From the IMG/VR virus record IMGVR_UViG_3300026199_000007, positions 1 to 21,324 of that record: a DNA stretch of 21,324 nucleotides. One strand, given 5' to 3'. Below are positions 1-10,987 of the stretch, one piece after another. Position 1 is the stretch's first letter. Every line of letters begins with the position of its first letter. The translations under genes were made by a program, and so were the position numbers. Source of the stretch: a virus. The notes beneath the pieces were generated by a model, which saw nothing but the letters and a program-made list of their open reading frames with translations, did not search any database and was not told where the DNA came from.

Positions 1-214
1 CATTTAAATCACCATACTCAACACCACCACCAGGAATAACAGGAACAGATCTCAATCCAGTTGCTATTGGTGTGATTGGCATACTGATATCAGGAAAATT
101 TACTGCCTGACAAAAGAAATCCACACCATCAAATAATTCAAGTTTAAACTTGAATCCTGTAGGTGCTAAGAAATTTCTATTTTTTGGTTGTTCTTTATAC
201 CATTCAGCAGGCAT
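1..214 (-). CDS. Partial virion structural protein, possibly tail-tube/baseplate-tube-like (C-terminus outside window)
   Basis: This reading frame starts at ATG 214 and stays open to the window edge, giving 71 residues beginning MPAEWYKEQPKNRNFLAPTG. A GAGGA ribosome site about 7 bases upstream (221-225) supports the start. The visible pattern is an N-terminal beta strand (GFKFKLELF), an aromatic/cysteine motif (VDFFCQAVNFPDIS), then a strand pair ending in VPVIPGGG and VEYGD. A similar order appears in the gp19 tail tube of this phage (F-V-V-D-V, then LLCKSTALPAS, then VPFRGRTVKIAGDR and TFDTW). Proteins opening NFxxPxGFxF occur as virion structural proteins in marine T4-like phages. From this I infer a tube-fold protein, either a tail tube paralogue or a baseplate tube-initiator-like protein. 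It follows the 86-residue gene by 23 bases and is probably co-transcribed with it. The specific role is unproven because most of the protein lies outside the window. Confidence 0.6.
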   Translation of the reverse strand, partial: MPAEWYKEQPKNRNFLAPTGFKFKLELFDGVDFFCQAVNFPDISMPITPIATGLRSVPVIPGGGVEYGDLN

Positions 215-237
215 CTCAAATCCTCAACTAATTATGG

Positions 238-498
238 TCATGCTTCAACTGCATTATTGTCCTTATCATGTCGTTGATAGGCAGCAGGTGTTCGTGTACT
301 ATTGTCTGCTTTTCTTGCTTGATATGTACCAGGTGTTCTAGTGGTGTTATCTACCTTACGTGCCTGATAATCAGCGTTCCAATCTTTCCATGCCACAGTA
401 CTCCAACCCTCACTGTCTCCAGAATAAAGTGTTTTACTTACACTTCCTGGTTGAGGATCAGATTCTGTATTATTTGATTCGTGTCTTTTGTATGTCAT
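238..498 (-). CDS. Small repeat-bearing protein of unknown function downstream of gp23 terminator
   Basis: This 86-residue protein is not a family I recognise. Residues 1-43 are acidic and polar with aromatic spots (GWSTVAWKDWNADY). Residues 44-58 and 59-73 form a 15-residue tandem repeat (YQARKVDNTTRTPGT then YQARKADNSTRTPAA), and a third, degenerate copy begins YQRHDKDN. It has no signal peptide, membrane segment or obvious catalytic motif, and looks like a basic, flexible linker or tail. The gene lies between the gp23 terminator and the partial tube-like gene. A CTAAATA late-promoter box ends only about 6 bases before the ATG and no Shine-Dalgarno site is visible, so a transcript from that box would be almost leaderless. 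The coherent repeat and the position in the operon favour a real gene. Confidence 0.6.
   Translation of the reverse strand: MTYKRHESNNTESDPQPGSVSKTLYSGDSEGWSTVAWKDWNADYQARKVDNTTRTPGTYQARKADNSTRTPAAYQRHDKDNNAVEA
280..369 (-). repeat. 45-bp in-frame tandem repeat (two copies plus a degenerate third)
   Basis: Two adjacent 45-base units (325-369 and 280-324, read on the minus strand) encode the repeated 15-residue block that starts TyrGln-AlaArgLys and ends ArgThrPro plus two small residues. A shorter, diverged unit follows at about 241-279. The unit length is a whole number of codons, so copy number could change without a frameshift. Confidence 0.7.
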
Positions 499-503
499 AT
501 ATC

Positions 504-510
504 TATTTAG
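504..510 (-). promoter_or_regulatory. Candidate late promoter box CTAAATA
   Basis: On the minus strand this reads CTAAATA, one base off the 7-base core ATAAATA of the T4 late promoter. It sits directly downstream of the gp23 terminator and upstream of the 86-residue gene. With the spacing usual for T4 late promoters, transcription would start almost at that gene's ATG (498), leaving little or no leader. Confidence 0.45.
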
Positions 511-512
511 AC

Positions 513-540
513 AAAAAAAAGGACTCCGAAGAGTCCTTTT
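513..540 (-). terminator. Rho-independent terminator after gp23, UUCG tetraloop
   Basis: On the minus strand the sequence is AAAA, stem GGACTC, loop TTCG, stem GAGTCC, then eight T residues (520-513). The C(UUCG)G loop is an exceptionally stable RNA tetraloop and the stem is perfect. It begins about 24 bases after the gp23 stop, so it ends the capsid gene transcript. The flanking A and T runs make it almost symmetrical, so it could also act weakly on plus-strand transcripts, where the loop would be CGAA with a short T run. Confidence 0.93.
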
Positions 541-564
541 GGTAATGCGAATGTGAAACTTGTA

Positions 565-1989
565 TCACATCAAGTTAGTGACCTGAACACGACGATAGTA
601 CATGTTGGCATTGGCGGTAAGTGTCTCACCGTCAGGTGTACCATTGTATGCACCGTTAGTTGTAACGAATGGATTGGATACCATGCCGTAACGTGTTTTG
701 AAACCGATCTTAGGTTGGAATGTATTGGGGTCAATACTGCGAACCATCTGGAGGGGTACATATGGGCAGTAGAATAGTCCTGCGTCATATGGGGAAGTAC
801 CCTTATAACCGATAACATAGTAATGCTTGTCAGACAAGTTAGCAGCATATGGGTCAACGTAGACCTTAATGCGACCATTGATTGTACCAACAGCAAGATT
901 TCCAGTGTCATCAACATCACCGATGGAAGGACCACCAGCACCGTTAAGACCTGAAGAATAGTCGAGAACACCTGCCATAGCCAGAGCACTTGCAACGTCT
1001 GCAGAACAGATGAGGAAGTTACCCTTTCCACGACGAGTCTCTTGGGCAATAGCGTTAGCGTCACGCTCTACCTGATAAAGAAGACCCTTGAATTTCTCAA
1101 CAGACCACCGACCGTTGCTGTCAACGTCGAGATCGAAGATACCAGCGTTAGCAACGTTGTTCTGAGCACCCTTCTTAGCGACGGTATACACAGTACGAAC
1201 GACTTCACGGTTGATTTCAGCGAGAACTTCACTAGACAGAATGTTAGCGAGTTCTTGCTCAGCATCTAAACCATGAATTGCTTTCAAGTCTTGAGCGAGT
1301 TCAAGAGTGTACTCTGCCTTGAGAGCCCTGGACTTTGCAGTCACAGAAGTCTTCTCAATGCTGAAGGACATCTCACGGAACAAGGAATCAGCCTCACCCA
1401 TTTTTTCCAGTTTTTCCCTGGACATACCACGAGCAACTTCATAAGTTCCAGCAGTGCTGTCATTTAGAAGGGCGGGGTTGTTACCATCGGAAAGACCATT
1501 ACCAGAATCTGAAGTACCATCTCCTTCACGAACAGCATAAGAACCTGCTGTGTCTCCATCGTCACCAGCAGAGAATCCTGTATCTGGTTCGTTGAATAGT
1601 GCTTCTTCGCCAGTCTGTTTCTCGTAGCGAGAACGCATGGCAAAGATAAGTCCTGTAGGACCACTCATTGGTTGTACGCCACATACGTCATATGCCATAA
1701 GGTTAGGCATAGCACGACGAACGAGGCTAATTAGGACAGGATCGAAACCTGCCAAGCCAGCTGTATTGGAATTACCCAATGCAGAATTAGCGGGAGATAC
1801 AGTACCAGCGCCTAATGCGTTGACTGCTACCTCATTGAGCATTCCCCGTTCTTCACGGATGAAACGCTCTTGGTTTTCCAAGAGTACTGCGGTTACTGCT
1901 TTCTTGTAGCGATCTCCTTTAAGTTCAGGAGCTCCCTCATGATTGAGAACAGGTGCCCACTTCTCTTGGAGTTTTTCTGCGTTAAACAT
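565..1989 (-). CDS. 23: Major capsid protein gp23
   Basis: This 474-residue protein forms the hexameric shell of the T4-like head (T4 gp23 is 521 residues). The N-terminus matches the gp23 delta domain (KLQEKWAPVLNHEGAPEL, followed by LLENQE near residue 36). The core signature VRRAMPNLMAYDVCGVQPM lies at residues 90-108, followed by SGPTGLIFAMRSRY. In T4, gp21 protease removes about 65 N-terminal residues at an (I/L)-x-E site. A fitting site here is LNE at residues 51-53, which is my inference. The start at 1989 has only a weak TAGAG site 9 bases upstream. The gene follows gp22 by 38 bases and is closed by the UUCG terminator. No gp24 vertex paralogue follows, so gp23 may also form the vertices or another protein may do so. 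Confidence 0.97.
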   Translation of the reverse strand: MFNAEKLQEKWAPVLNHEGAPELKGDRYKKAVTAVLLENQERFIREERGMLNEVAVNALGAGTVSPANSALGNSNTAGLAGFDPVLISLVRRAMPNLMAYDVCGVQPMSGPTGLIFAMRSRYEKQTGEEALFNEPDTGFSAGDDGDTAGSYAVREGDGTSDSGNGLSDGNNPALLNDSTAGTYEVARGMSREKLEKMGEADSLFREMSFSIEKTSVTAKSRALKAEYTLELAQDLKAIHGLDAEQELANILSSEVLAEINREVVRTVYTVAKKGAQNNVANAGIFDLDVDSNGRWSVEKFKGLLYQVERDANAIAQETRRGKGNFLICSADVASALAMAGVLDYSSGLNGAGGPSIGDVDDTGNLAVGTINGRIKVYVDPYAANLSDKHYYVIGYKGTSPYDAGLFYCPYVPLQMVRSIDPNTFQPKIGFKTRYGMVSNPFVTTNGAYNGTPDGETLTANANMYYRRVQVTNLM

Positions 1990-2017
1990 TTTTTTAAACT
2001 CTAAAGAAAGTGTGTTA

Positions 2018-2030
2018 TATTATTATATTA
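2018..2030 (-). promoter_or_regulatory. Weak AT-rich late-promoter-like stretch before gp23
   Basis: The minus strand here reads TAATATAATAATA, overlapping the gp22 stop codon. It contains TATAATAATA, which only loosely resembles the late box. gp23 must be expressed heavily, so a promoter is expected in this 38-base gap, but the match is not exact. Confidence 0.25.
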
Positions 2031-3206
2031 CTGCCAGCGTTCGATGGCCTGCATGTAAGATGCCATTGCTGGACCTACATCGCCTTGACCTTCTACTGGT
2101 GTCTCGTCAGTTGCTTCTACTGCTTTAACAGCAGGTGCATCTGGGAAGTATGACTCACGAAGAGTCTTGACTGCCTCAGCGAATTTCTCCTCTGATTCAA
2201 ATCCTACCCCCTCTGCTAGTTTAGCAAGTTTGTCTTTCTGTGTATCTGCTAGTCCTTCTGAAATTGTATTCAGAACAACTGTACGTGCAGATTCATCAAG
2301 ACGATTATTAAGTCCCACATTGCGCTCAATCTGTTCATTAAGGCGCTCTTCCATTTTACGAAGATCTTCTGTCAAACCCTCGACGACTTCAATTTTATCG
2401 TCGGGGATATTAATATAATGCTCGTTAAAGAGATTCTTAAGACCGGCAATAAAATCTTCTGTGATTTCATTGCGAATACCACGGTCAATAGCAATCTGGT
2501 TCTCTTCTAACCAGGTCTGAACGGCATACTTACATGTACCGTTTACTTCTTCTGCAAGCTCAGCCTTAATTTCCACTGACTTAGCTTCCAGTTGTATTTT
2601 GAACTGCTCTTCAAGTTTAGTCCACTCTTCATTGAGTTTAGACTTAACAGCAGCCTCAAAAATTGTTGTTGCTTTTTCTTTGAACTCCTCAGAGAGTTCA
2701 GTTCCTTCTGTCAATGCTGCAACATCAGCAGACATATCAACTTCCTCAAAGGAAGGCTTGATCGGATAAGTTACAGTAGGACCAGTAGATGTTCCATGTG
2801 TAATGTCAGCGCCAAACTTAGGATTAGAACCGGCAGGCTCATCTTTACCAGTACCTCGCTGTTGGGGATCACCAGCGACTTGTGATACAGGTGCAGATGC
2901 TTTAGCACCGGGATTATCTTCACCAGACTCATTACCATCAGGACGAGGACCACCGTTATCAGTAATCGATTGACCCGCTTGGGCAACATCGGTACTCAGG
3001 TCAGCAGCATGACCAGTGCGCCCTTCGGCACTACCGCCATTTTGATTCACAGCACCTGAGGTTTGGCTGTTGGCGTGATAAGAACCACCACCAGGAATAA
3101 CAGCAGCAGCAACGGATCCCATGGGATCTTGACCAAGAGTTTCGGCAAGTTCCTTATGTGATTCAGTTACAAACTCCTCAAACTTTTCGTTTAGCATATC
3201 TGACAT
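2028..3206 (-). CDS. 22: Prohead scaffold (assembly core) protein gp22
   Basis: This 392-residue protein is the internal scaffold around which gp23 assembles and is later degraded by gp21. Residues 1-25 are helical and acidic. Residues about 31-150 are a Gly/Asn/Pro/Ser-rich, low-complexity stretch. Residues about 158-355 are strongly helical and Glu/Lys-rich with likely coiled coils, for example KMEERLNEQIERN. The C-terminus ends MASYMQAIERWQ, the kind of short amphipathic tail seen in marine gp22 homologues. T4 gp22 is only 269 residues; most of the excess is the low-complexity stretch. The location between gp21 and gp23 fixes the assignment. An AAGGGGA ribosome site lies about 6 bases before the ATG and an exact TATAAATA box lies about 42 bases upstream. 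Many (I/L)-x-E tripeptides could serve as gp21 cleavage sites. Confidence 0.92.
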   Translation of the reverse strand: MSDMLNEKFEEFVTESHKELAETLGQDPMGSVAAAVIPGGGSYHANSQTSGAVNQNGGSAEGRTGHAADLSTDVAQAGQSITDNGGPRPDGNESGEDNPGAKASAPVSQVAGDPQQRGTGKDEPAGSNPKFGADITHGTSTGPTVTYPIKPSFEEVDMSADVAALTEGTELSEEFKEKATTIFEAAVKSKLNEEWTKLEEQFKIQLEAKSVEIKAELAEEVNGTCKYAVQTWLEENQIAIDRGIRNEITEDFIAGLKNLFNEHYINIPDDKIEVVEGLTEDLRKMEERLNEQIERNVGLNNRLDESARTVVLNTISEGLADTQKDKLAKLAEGVGFESEEKFAEAVKTLRESYFPDAPAVKAVEATDETPVEGQGDVGPAMASYMQAIERWQ

Positions 3207-10740: not shown

Positions 10741-10746
10741 CTCCTC
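10741..10746 (-). promoter_or_regulatory. Ribosome binding site GAGGAG fixing the gp17 GTG start
   Basis: The minus strand reads GAGGAG, five bases AATTA, then GTG at 10735-10733. The site overlaps the TGA stop of the upstream 80-residue gene, so a ribosome ending that gene sits on the gp17 start signal. This supports GTG initiation and coupling. Confidence 0.8.
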
Positions 10747-10987
10747 ATGATATATGTGTAAAATTATAATCAGTAATCATCGCAAATAGTTTAATTTTCA
10801 ATTCTTGAAGATATCTCAGTTCTTCGATAGATCTTTGAGGAGAACCCGGCCAAATTTCCAAGTATCCACACACAACATTATATAGCATCCTAGTTTCTAT
10901 AATACCCATCTTTGTAACACAATGCCATTCCTTATCAATTTTTTCAGGATCCCATTCTGGTTCATCGTGTCTGTCACTAGTAGTCAT
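10745..10987 (-). CDS. Small conserved-looking hypothetical protein between the terminase genes
   Basis: This 80-residue protein matches no family I can name. It opens with a polar acidic stretch (DRHDEPEWDPEKIDKEWHC), followed by predicted helices (IIETRMLYNVVCGYLEIW and SIEELRYLQELKIKLFAMI) and ends DYNFTHIS. It is soluble, with two cysteines (at VVCGY and EWHCV), and has no membrane segment. Its ATG overlaps the stop of the 124-residue gene (ATGA), and its own stop lies in the gp17 ribosome site. It is therefore translated as part of a tightly coupled gp16-to-gp17 block. The position suggests a packaging or assembly accessory, but that rests on context only. Confidence 0.8.
   Translation of the reverse strand: MTTSDRHDEPEWDPEKIDKEWHCVTKMGIIETRMLYNVVCGYLEIWPGSPQRSIEELRYLQELKIKLFAMITDYNFTHIS

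Follow-up and report, generated by a model that had tools for sequence, protein, structure and literature searches.

It is quite likely that, in the window (the whole 21,324-nucleotide stretch of viral DNA analysed here), a gp55-type late promoter lies behind the gp23 terminator with its +1 on the start codon of an 86-codon gene, x86, that a leaderless mRNA runs from there into gp3, and that x86 moved onto an old +1. The window comprises a minus-strand structural gene cluster of a T4-like virus of cyanophage type, its gp23 being 89% identical to gp23 of S-PM2. The elements of the locus are the following:

565..1989, minus strand: gp23, major capsid protein (PHROG 138 major head protein, E 3.6e-168), the gene upstream of the terminator
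513..540, minus strand: intrinsic terminator with a 10-bp stem, UUCG loop and eight T (sequence and fold)
504..511, minus strand: putative late promoter box TCTAAATA, containing CTAAATA (510..504), expected at -13..-6 (sequence, relatives and the numbering given in PMC2988020)
499..503, minus strand: gap GATAT, five bases, expected at -5..-1 (sequence and recurrence of the five-base gap)
496..498, minus strand: ATG of x86, its A the predicted +1 (T4 geometry; conserved N-terminus)
238..498, minus strand: x86, 86-codon gene (PHROG 17325, function not known)
221..225, minus strand: GAGGA, Shine-Dalgarno site of gp3 (duplex -5.6 kcal/mol)
2..214, minus strand: start of gp3 (tail completion; PHROG 45 tail tube), the second gene after the box, truncated where the window ends

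On the minus strand from 540 to 496, the terminator, the dinucleotide GT (512..511), CTAAATA, GATAT and ATG follow one another. The terminator is composed of the arm AAAAGGACTC (540..531), the loop TTCG (530..527) and the other arm GAGTCCTTTT (526..517), with the run of eight T at 520..513, four of which are paired within the stem. Its fold (-13.6 kcal/mol, z -4.3, with none of 200 shuffles equally good) is that of an intrinsic terminator, a stable stem followed by a U run. A preliminary description had named this hairpin and a CTAAATA within the ten bases after it, both of which are confirmed, and had counted six bases from box to ATG, where there are five. No Rfam match was obtained for window positions 1-2100. 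CTAAATA occurs 5 times in the window (4.7 expected) and TAAATA 23 times (24.6 expected); box frequency is thus at chance level, and the claim rests on place, i.e. spacing, and conservation. Other candidate late boxes of the window are situated 39 (gp18), 26 (gp20), 41 (gp22), 22 (a 65-aa gene) and 41 nt (a 380-aa gene) from their genes, the 65-aa gene possessing a further TAAATA at gap 2.

The x86 start lacks a Shine-Dalgarno site, as had been described (anti-SD duplex +0.5 kcal/mol). Window genes gp18, gp19, gp22, gp13 and gp17 form anti-SD duplexes of -7.3 to -8.6 kcal/mol; besides x86, gp20, gp21 and the 65-aa gene are without such a site. The start codon of x86 is secure, since relatives from both genomic contexts of the gene begin alike, with M(T/A/S)Y(K/V/I)R.. 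at the N-terminus. There is no TAAATA within 60 nt of gp3, which is therefore without a late box of its own.

The T4 late box comprises 8 bp numbered from -13, with its last A at -6 (PMC2988020), and together with the five-base gap this numbering would place +1 on the A of the x86 ATG. TCTAAATA is an 8-bp box with a single difference from the family consensus TATAAATA, a C at -12, which is the variant given for phage Aeh1 (PMC2988020). As in T4 late promoters (gp55/gp33/gp45), TAAATA would lie about one helical turn upstream of +1, and close or near-identical relatives of the window encode gp55 in all three records examined (80-81% to the S-PM2 protein), its presence being judged from these records. 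Unlike in the window, no T4 ORF has the box at gap 5 (0/286), and the divergent promoter of T4 gp4 has a leader with AAGGAG. Assuming that the T4 start position applies to cyanophages, host RNA polymerase with phage gp55 would read a T4-type late promoter two bases past the gp23 terminator and start the RNA at the first base of the x86 ATG. The leaderless mRNA would be translated from its 5'-terminal AUG independently of a Shine-Dalgarno site, and the transcript would continue into gp3, which would use its own.

The 3' flanks of gp23 were compared in 18 isolate cyanophage records, 79 IMG/VR loci and six further loci (103 in total), the IMG/VR loci being the best 80 among the matches listed minus L385, whose contig ends at the gp23 stop. 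Three flanks are too short, and 95 are distinct after removal of repeats. Gaps were counted from the first TAAATA, sought within 170 nt of the gp23 stop, to the next ATG opening at least 30 codons. Among the matches listed, TAAATA is present in 69 of the 95 distinct flanks, mostly directly behind the terminator, with a gap of five in 25, of seven in one and of 12-61 in 41, and with no ORF in two; gaps of 0-4, 6 and 8-11 are found in none of these 69. S-RSM4 was rejected as a gap-7 case, its annotated start lying 15 nt further on. The single gap of 12 belongs to L006, where the box precedes the terminator; the gp3 homologue of this locus is 61% identical to the annotated gp3 of S-PM2. The same locus, of marine virus AG-345-P14 (L006 7220-7260), carries, ahead of gp3, a relative of the window's 80-aa gene (10745..10987) whose ATG is six bases from a TAAATA.

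Genes behind the 25 gap-5 boxes among the matches listed are unrelated, comprising x86, gp3-like and several other small genes. Most relatives possess a terminator at the same place behind gp23, with different stems. In a tree built from gp23 C-termini (90 rows among the matches listed, 27 of them with gap 5), gap 5 requires nine changes, at least three of them forced by well-supported branches; it occurs in an HTVC008M-like group, the L414 group, the window clade beside S-PM2, and L442. HTVC008M has terminator, TAAATA, AACAT and ATG behind gp23. Between the window and L012, a variant of the same site, gap letters and terminator stem differ while the gap of five is kept. L375, close to the window clade on this tree, possesses TAAATAGATATA behind the terminator, a 19-nt gap and GAGG before the ATG of another gene. 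The gp23-gp3 boundary of other T4-like phages resembles that of the window in the succession of terminator and late box and differs in its leader, about 13-37 nt in most and none in the window clade, pelagimyophages and a few others.

Relatives of x86 are present in 62 phage records and 80 IMG/VR loci; Pfam yielded no match. The gene lies between gp23 and gp3 in the window clade, and behind gp16 and before gp17 in the other relatives showing a place. Of 80 loci with upstream DNA, 42 have the gene at gap 5 (36 behind gp16 and 6 at the gp23 site), a count that omits L004, L011, L021 and L068 (internal domain or no upstream DNA) and in which L001 and L032 are the same phage, P-HM1. The 36 gap-5 loci behind gp16 carry four different gap sequences. 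The x86 tree scored L011 and L068 as without gap 5 though their upstream DNA is missing, and its number of changes is not used. In four loci at the gp16 site (L020, L025, L038, L064) the ATG is set off from the gap-5 position by an additional 17 nt containing GGAG, which extend the gap to 22; this segment may represent a natural switch between a leaderless and a leadered start of one gene, in either direction.

A box travelling with x86 from the gp16 site was considered and rejected: L014, the sister of the window clade and the nearest x86 relative outside it (92%), carries the gene after gp16 without a box; the box is a feature of the gp23-gp3 site. From the boxless L014 and from L375, which has the same TAAATAGATATA with a 19-nt leader, we infer that x86, elsewhere behind gp16, arrived in the window clade so placed that its ATG coincided with the old +1. 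At this site the promoter probably predates x86, since many T4-like phages have a late box after the gp23 terminator, often followed by a leader of about 15-30 nt. Two points from the gp16 site, where the x86 ATG lies 4 nt past the stop codon, count against a leaderless reading: a fixed 4-nt intergenic gap could preserve the spacing by descent alone, and x86 could be translated there by coupling. The x86 protein possesses degenerate tandem repeats (YQARKxDNxTRTP..), and an x86-like stretch is found close to the N-terminus of a protein of 403 aa in phage ACG-2014f (L004 2971-4182). Behind its gp16, where other relatives have x86, the window carries a 124-aa gene with no PHROG or Pfam match.

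Late promoters of the cyanophages S-PM2 and Syn9 are given as NATAAATA (PMC2984593); they share box family and phage family with the window and differ in that the boxes, as measured in eight cyanophages, are for the most part separated from the ATG by 19-40 nt. Of the 2186 ORFs of these eight, 4 are at gap 5 (p 0.08, or 0.014 with ATAAATA). TAAATAN5ATG yields 30 matches in the eight records against 26 for the reversed control, i.e. no excess, and ATAAATAN5ATG yields 4 against 10 in ten more. A genome-wide gap-5 class in cyanophages was rejected, pattern and ORF counts giving no clear excess, and the window case is therefore exceptional within its group, the spacing being maintained in individual families (x86, PTOX, GC441). 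The four cyanophage gap-5 genes have a median anti-SD energy of -4.7, counting against a leaderless pattern there.

PTOX and GC441 were followed because P-SSM4 shows gap 5 in them. Among 80 PTOX loci, gap 5 is found with TAAATA in 9 and with TATATA in 6, a box at 12-30 in 9, and none in 56. The PTOX box of L204, L226, L239 and others lies inside a longer palindrome, AAGTATAAATACTT or GTATATATAC, which occurs in varied upstream contexts at gap 5 or about 20 and is possibly more than a late box. GC441, behind psbD, has gap 5 in 10 of 10 close relatives (L266, with no start, left out); in P-SSM4 (L172 1040-1090) psbD is followed by a terminator, TATAAATA, a five-base gap and the start codon of a 79-aa gene, packed as in the window.

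The window finding appears to lead on to a broader regularity in pelagimyophages. HTVC008M, a Pelagibacter phage isolate, was picked before its sequence was seen; it possesses TAAATA at gap 5 in 10 of 211 ORFs, against 8 for all other gaps of 0-11 together (binomial 4e-7, assuming every gap equally likely), and the pattern search returns 14 matches, compared with 4 when the pattern is reversed. For the starts annotated by the depositors in the first 32 kb, gap 5 occurs in 8 of 53, and boxes at other gaps up to 60 nt in 5; annotated starts agree with the gap-5 start codons. The eight include head completion protein (gp4), DNA end protector (gp2), a putative tape measure, tube-associated baseplate protein and a baseplate wedge subunit. 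G009, G004 and G002 were picked for pattern matches already seen in them, so that pooled ORF-gap p-values overstate the effect. In HTVC008M, G009, G004 and G002 the median anti-SD energy is +0.8 kcal/mol for gap-5 genes (n=24) and -5.7 for gaps of 12-45 (n=65; difference p 6e-8), a contrast that is partly circular since the box at gap 5 occupies the Shine-Dalgarno slot. On the reverse strand of L455 (G009), a 544-aa ORF (MPATDAYLGN), a probable large terminase with an N-terminus like that of the window's gp17, has TAAATA at gap 5.

In HTVC008M, gp2 and gp4 are divergent, with 26 bp between their ATGs and one gap-5 box per gene inside; no upstream gene on the same strand could supply either of them by read-through. 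Where relatives have gap 5 or 6, the spacer is 16-32 bp. The comparison comprises 43 of 44 loci; on the gp4 side, gap 5 is found in 22 by script and in 7 more by reading the next ATG by hand, the remainder having gap 6, leaders or no box. T4 and most cyanophages have leaders at the gp4 promoter. The same exact spacing is found before many putative late genes of related ocean viruses, above all those infecting the abundant SAR11 bacteria, and marine T4-like phages appear likely to use leaderless transcription as a second regular mode of late gene expression, one that prevails in pelagimyophages, with a gp55 box ending at -6 fused to the ATG of core virion genes and forming a movable cassette. 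The predicted mode would include gp2, gp4, baseplate wedge, tape measure and the gp23-gp3 boundary. A nearly leaderless start at the late box had been proposed for the window; comparison supports it, the gap predicting an exactly leaderless RNA. The rarity ascribed to such starts among late phage genes applies to T4 and the cyanophages at the counts above and fails for pelagimyophages, in which gap 5 is common.

Alternatively, x86 could be translated from a long mRNA that reads through the gp23 terminator, with a start independent of Shine-Dalgarno pairing in an A/U-rich unstructured stretch and the box a relic or weak. This is unlikely: many Prochlorococcus genes are said to start without such a site (PMC5607370), other window genes likewise lack one and the start behind gp16 is placed as in translational coupling, but a strong terminator intervenes, the exact gap of five is common to several lineages, and it recurs at the divergent gp2/gp4, where upstream read-through is impossible. 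It is quite unlikely that the box is a real late promoter serving gp3 and the genes behind, with x86 just at the 5' end and poorly translated. A box behind the gp23 terminator is indeed common whichever gene comes next, and gp3 has a Shine-Dalgarno site and no own box here, but the frequent exact gap of five, with none at 0-4, 6 or 8-11 among the matches listed, would be left unexplained, and the gap of 22 with GGAG in L020, L025, L038 and L064 looks as if the x86 start itself mattered. A chance TAAATA in AT-rich DNA, with no promoter, would agree with the motif counts of the window but is highly improbable, as many diverged phages have the box after their gp23 terminator and it persists with its gap while terminator stem and gap letters vary. 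The arrangement of elements at the locus is confirmed, and its reading as a leaderless late promoter is supported by comparison.

Leaderless mRNAs are known from bacteria and phages, lambda cI being an example. The predicted x86 mRNA is like them in its 5'-terminal AUG without a Shine-Dalgarno site, and unlike them in that the type would pair with a phage-coded late sigma factor and recurs in virion genes, the start being predicted by geometry. Among cyanobacteria and other phages, 19 leaderless start sites are given for Synechococcus elongatus UTEX 2973 (PMC6091082), leaderless transcripts are called likely in Prochlorococcus MED4 (PMC5607370), and the authors on AR9 describe phage transcripts as often leaderless (PMC5312081). 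Leaderless late genes of T4-like phages were not found described in the openly licensed literature, which is weak evidence of absence. According to a pelagimyophage study, late promoter prediction was unsuccessful in its genomes (PMC7029224); a simple explanation would be that a box set against the ATG might escape a search designed for leadered promoters.

If the leaderless mode is true, box plus ORF would be the smallest possible expression cassette, movable without a ribosome binding site, and x86 and PTOX may have moved as such cassettes. Virion genes of some very abundant ocean viruses would then be translated without leader or Shine-Dalgarno site, which would bear on gene finding, promoter prediction and the competition of late phage RNA for host ribosomes.
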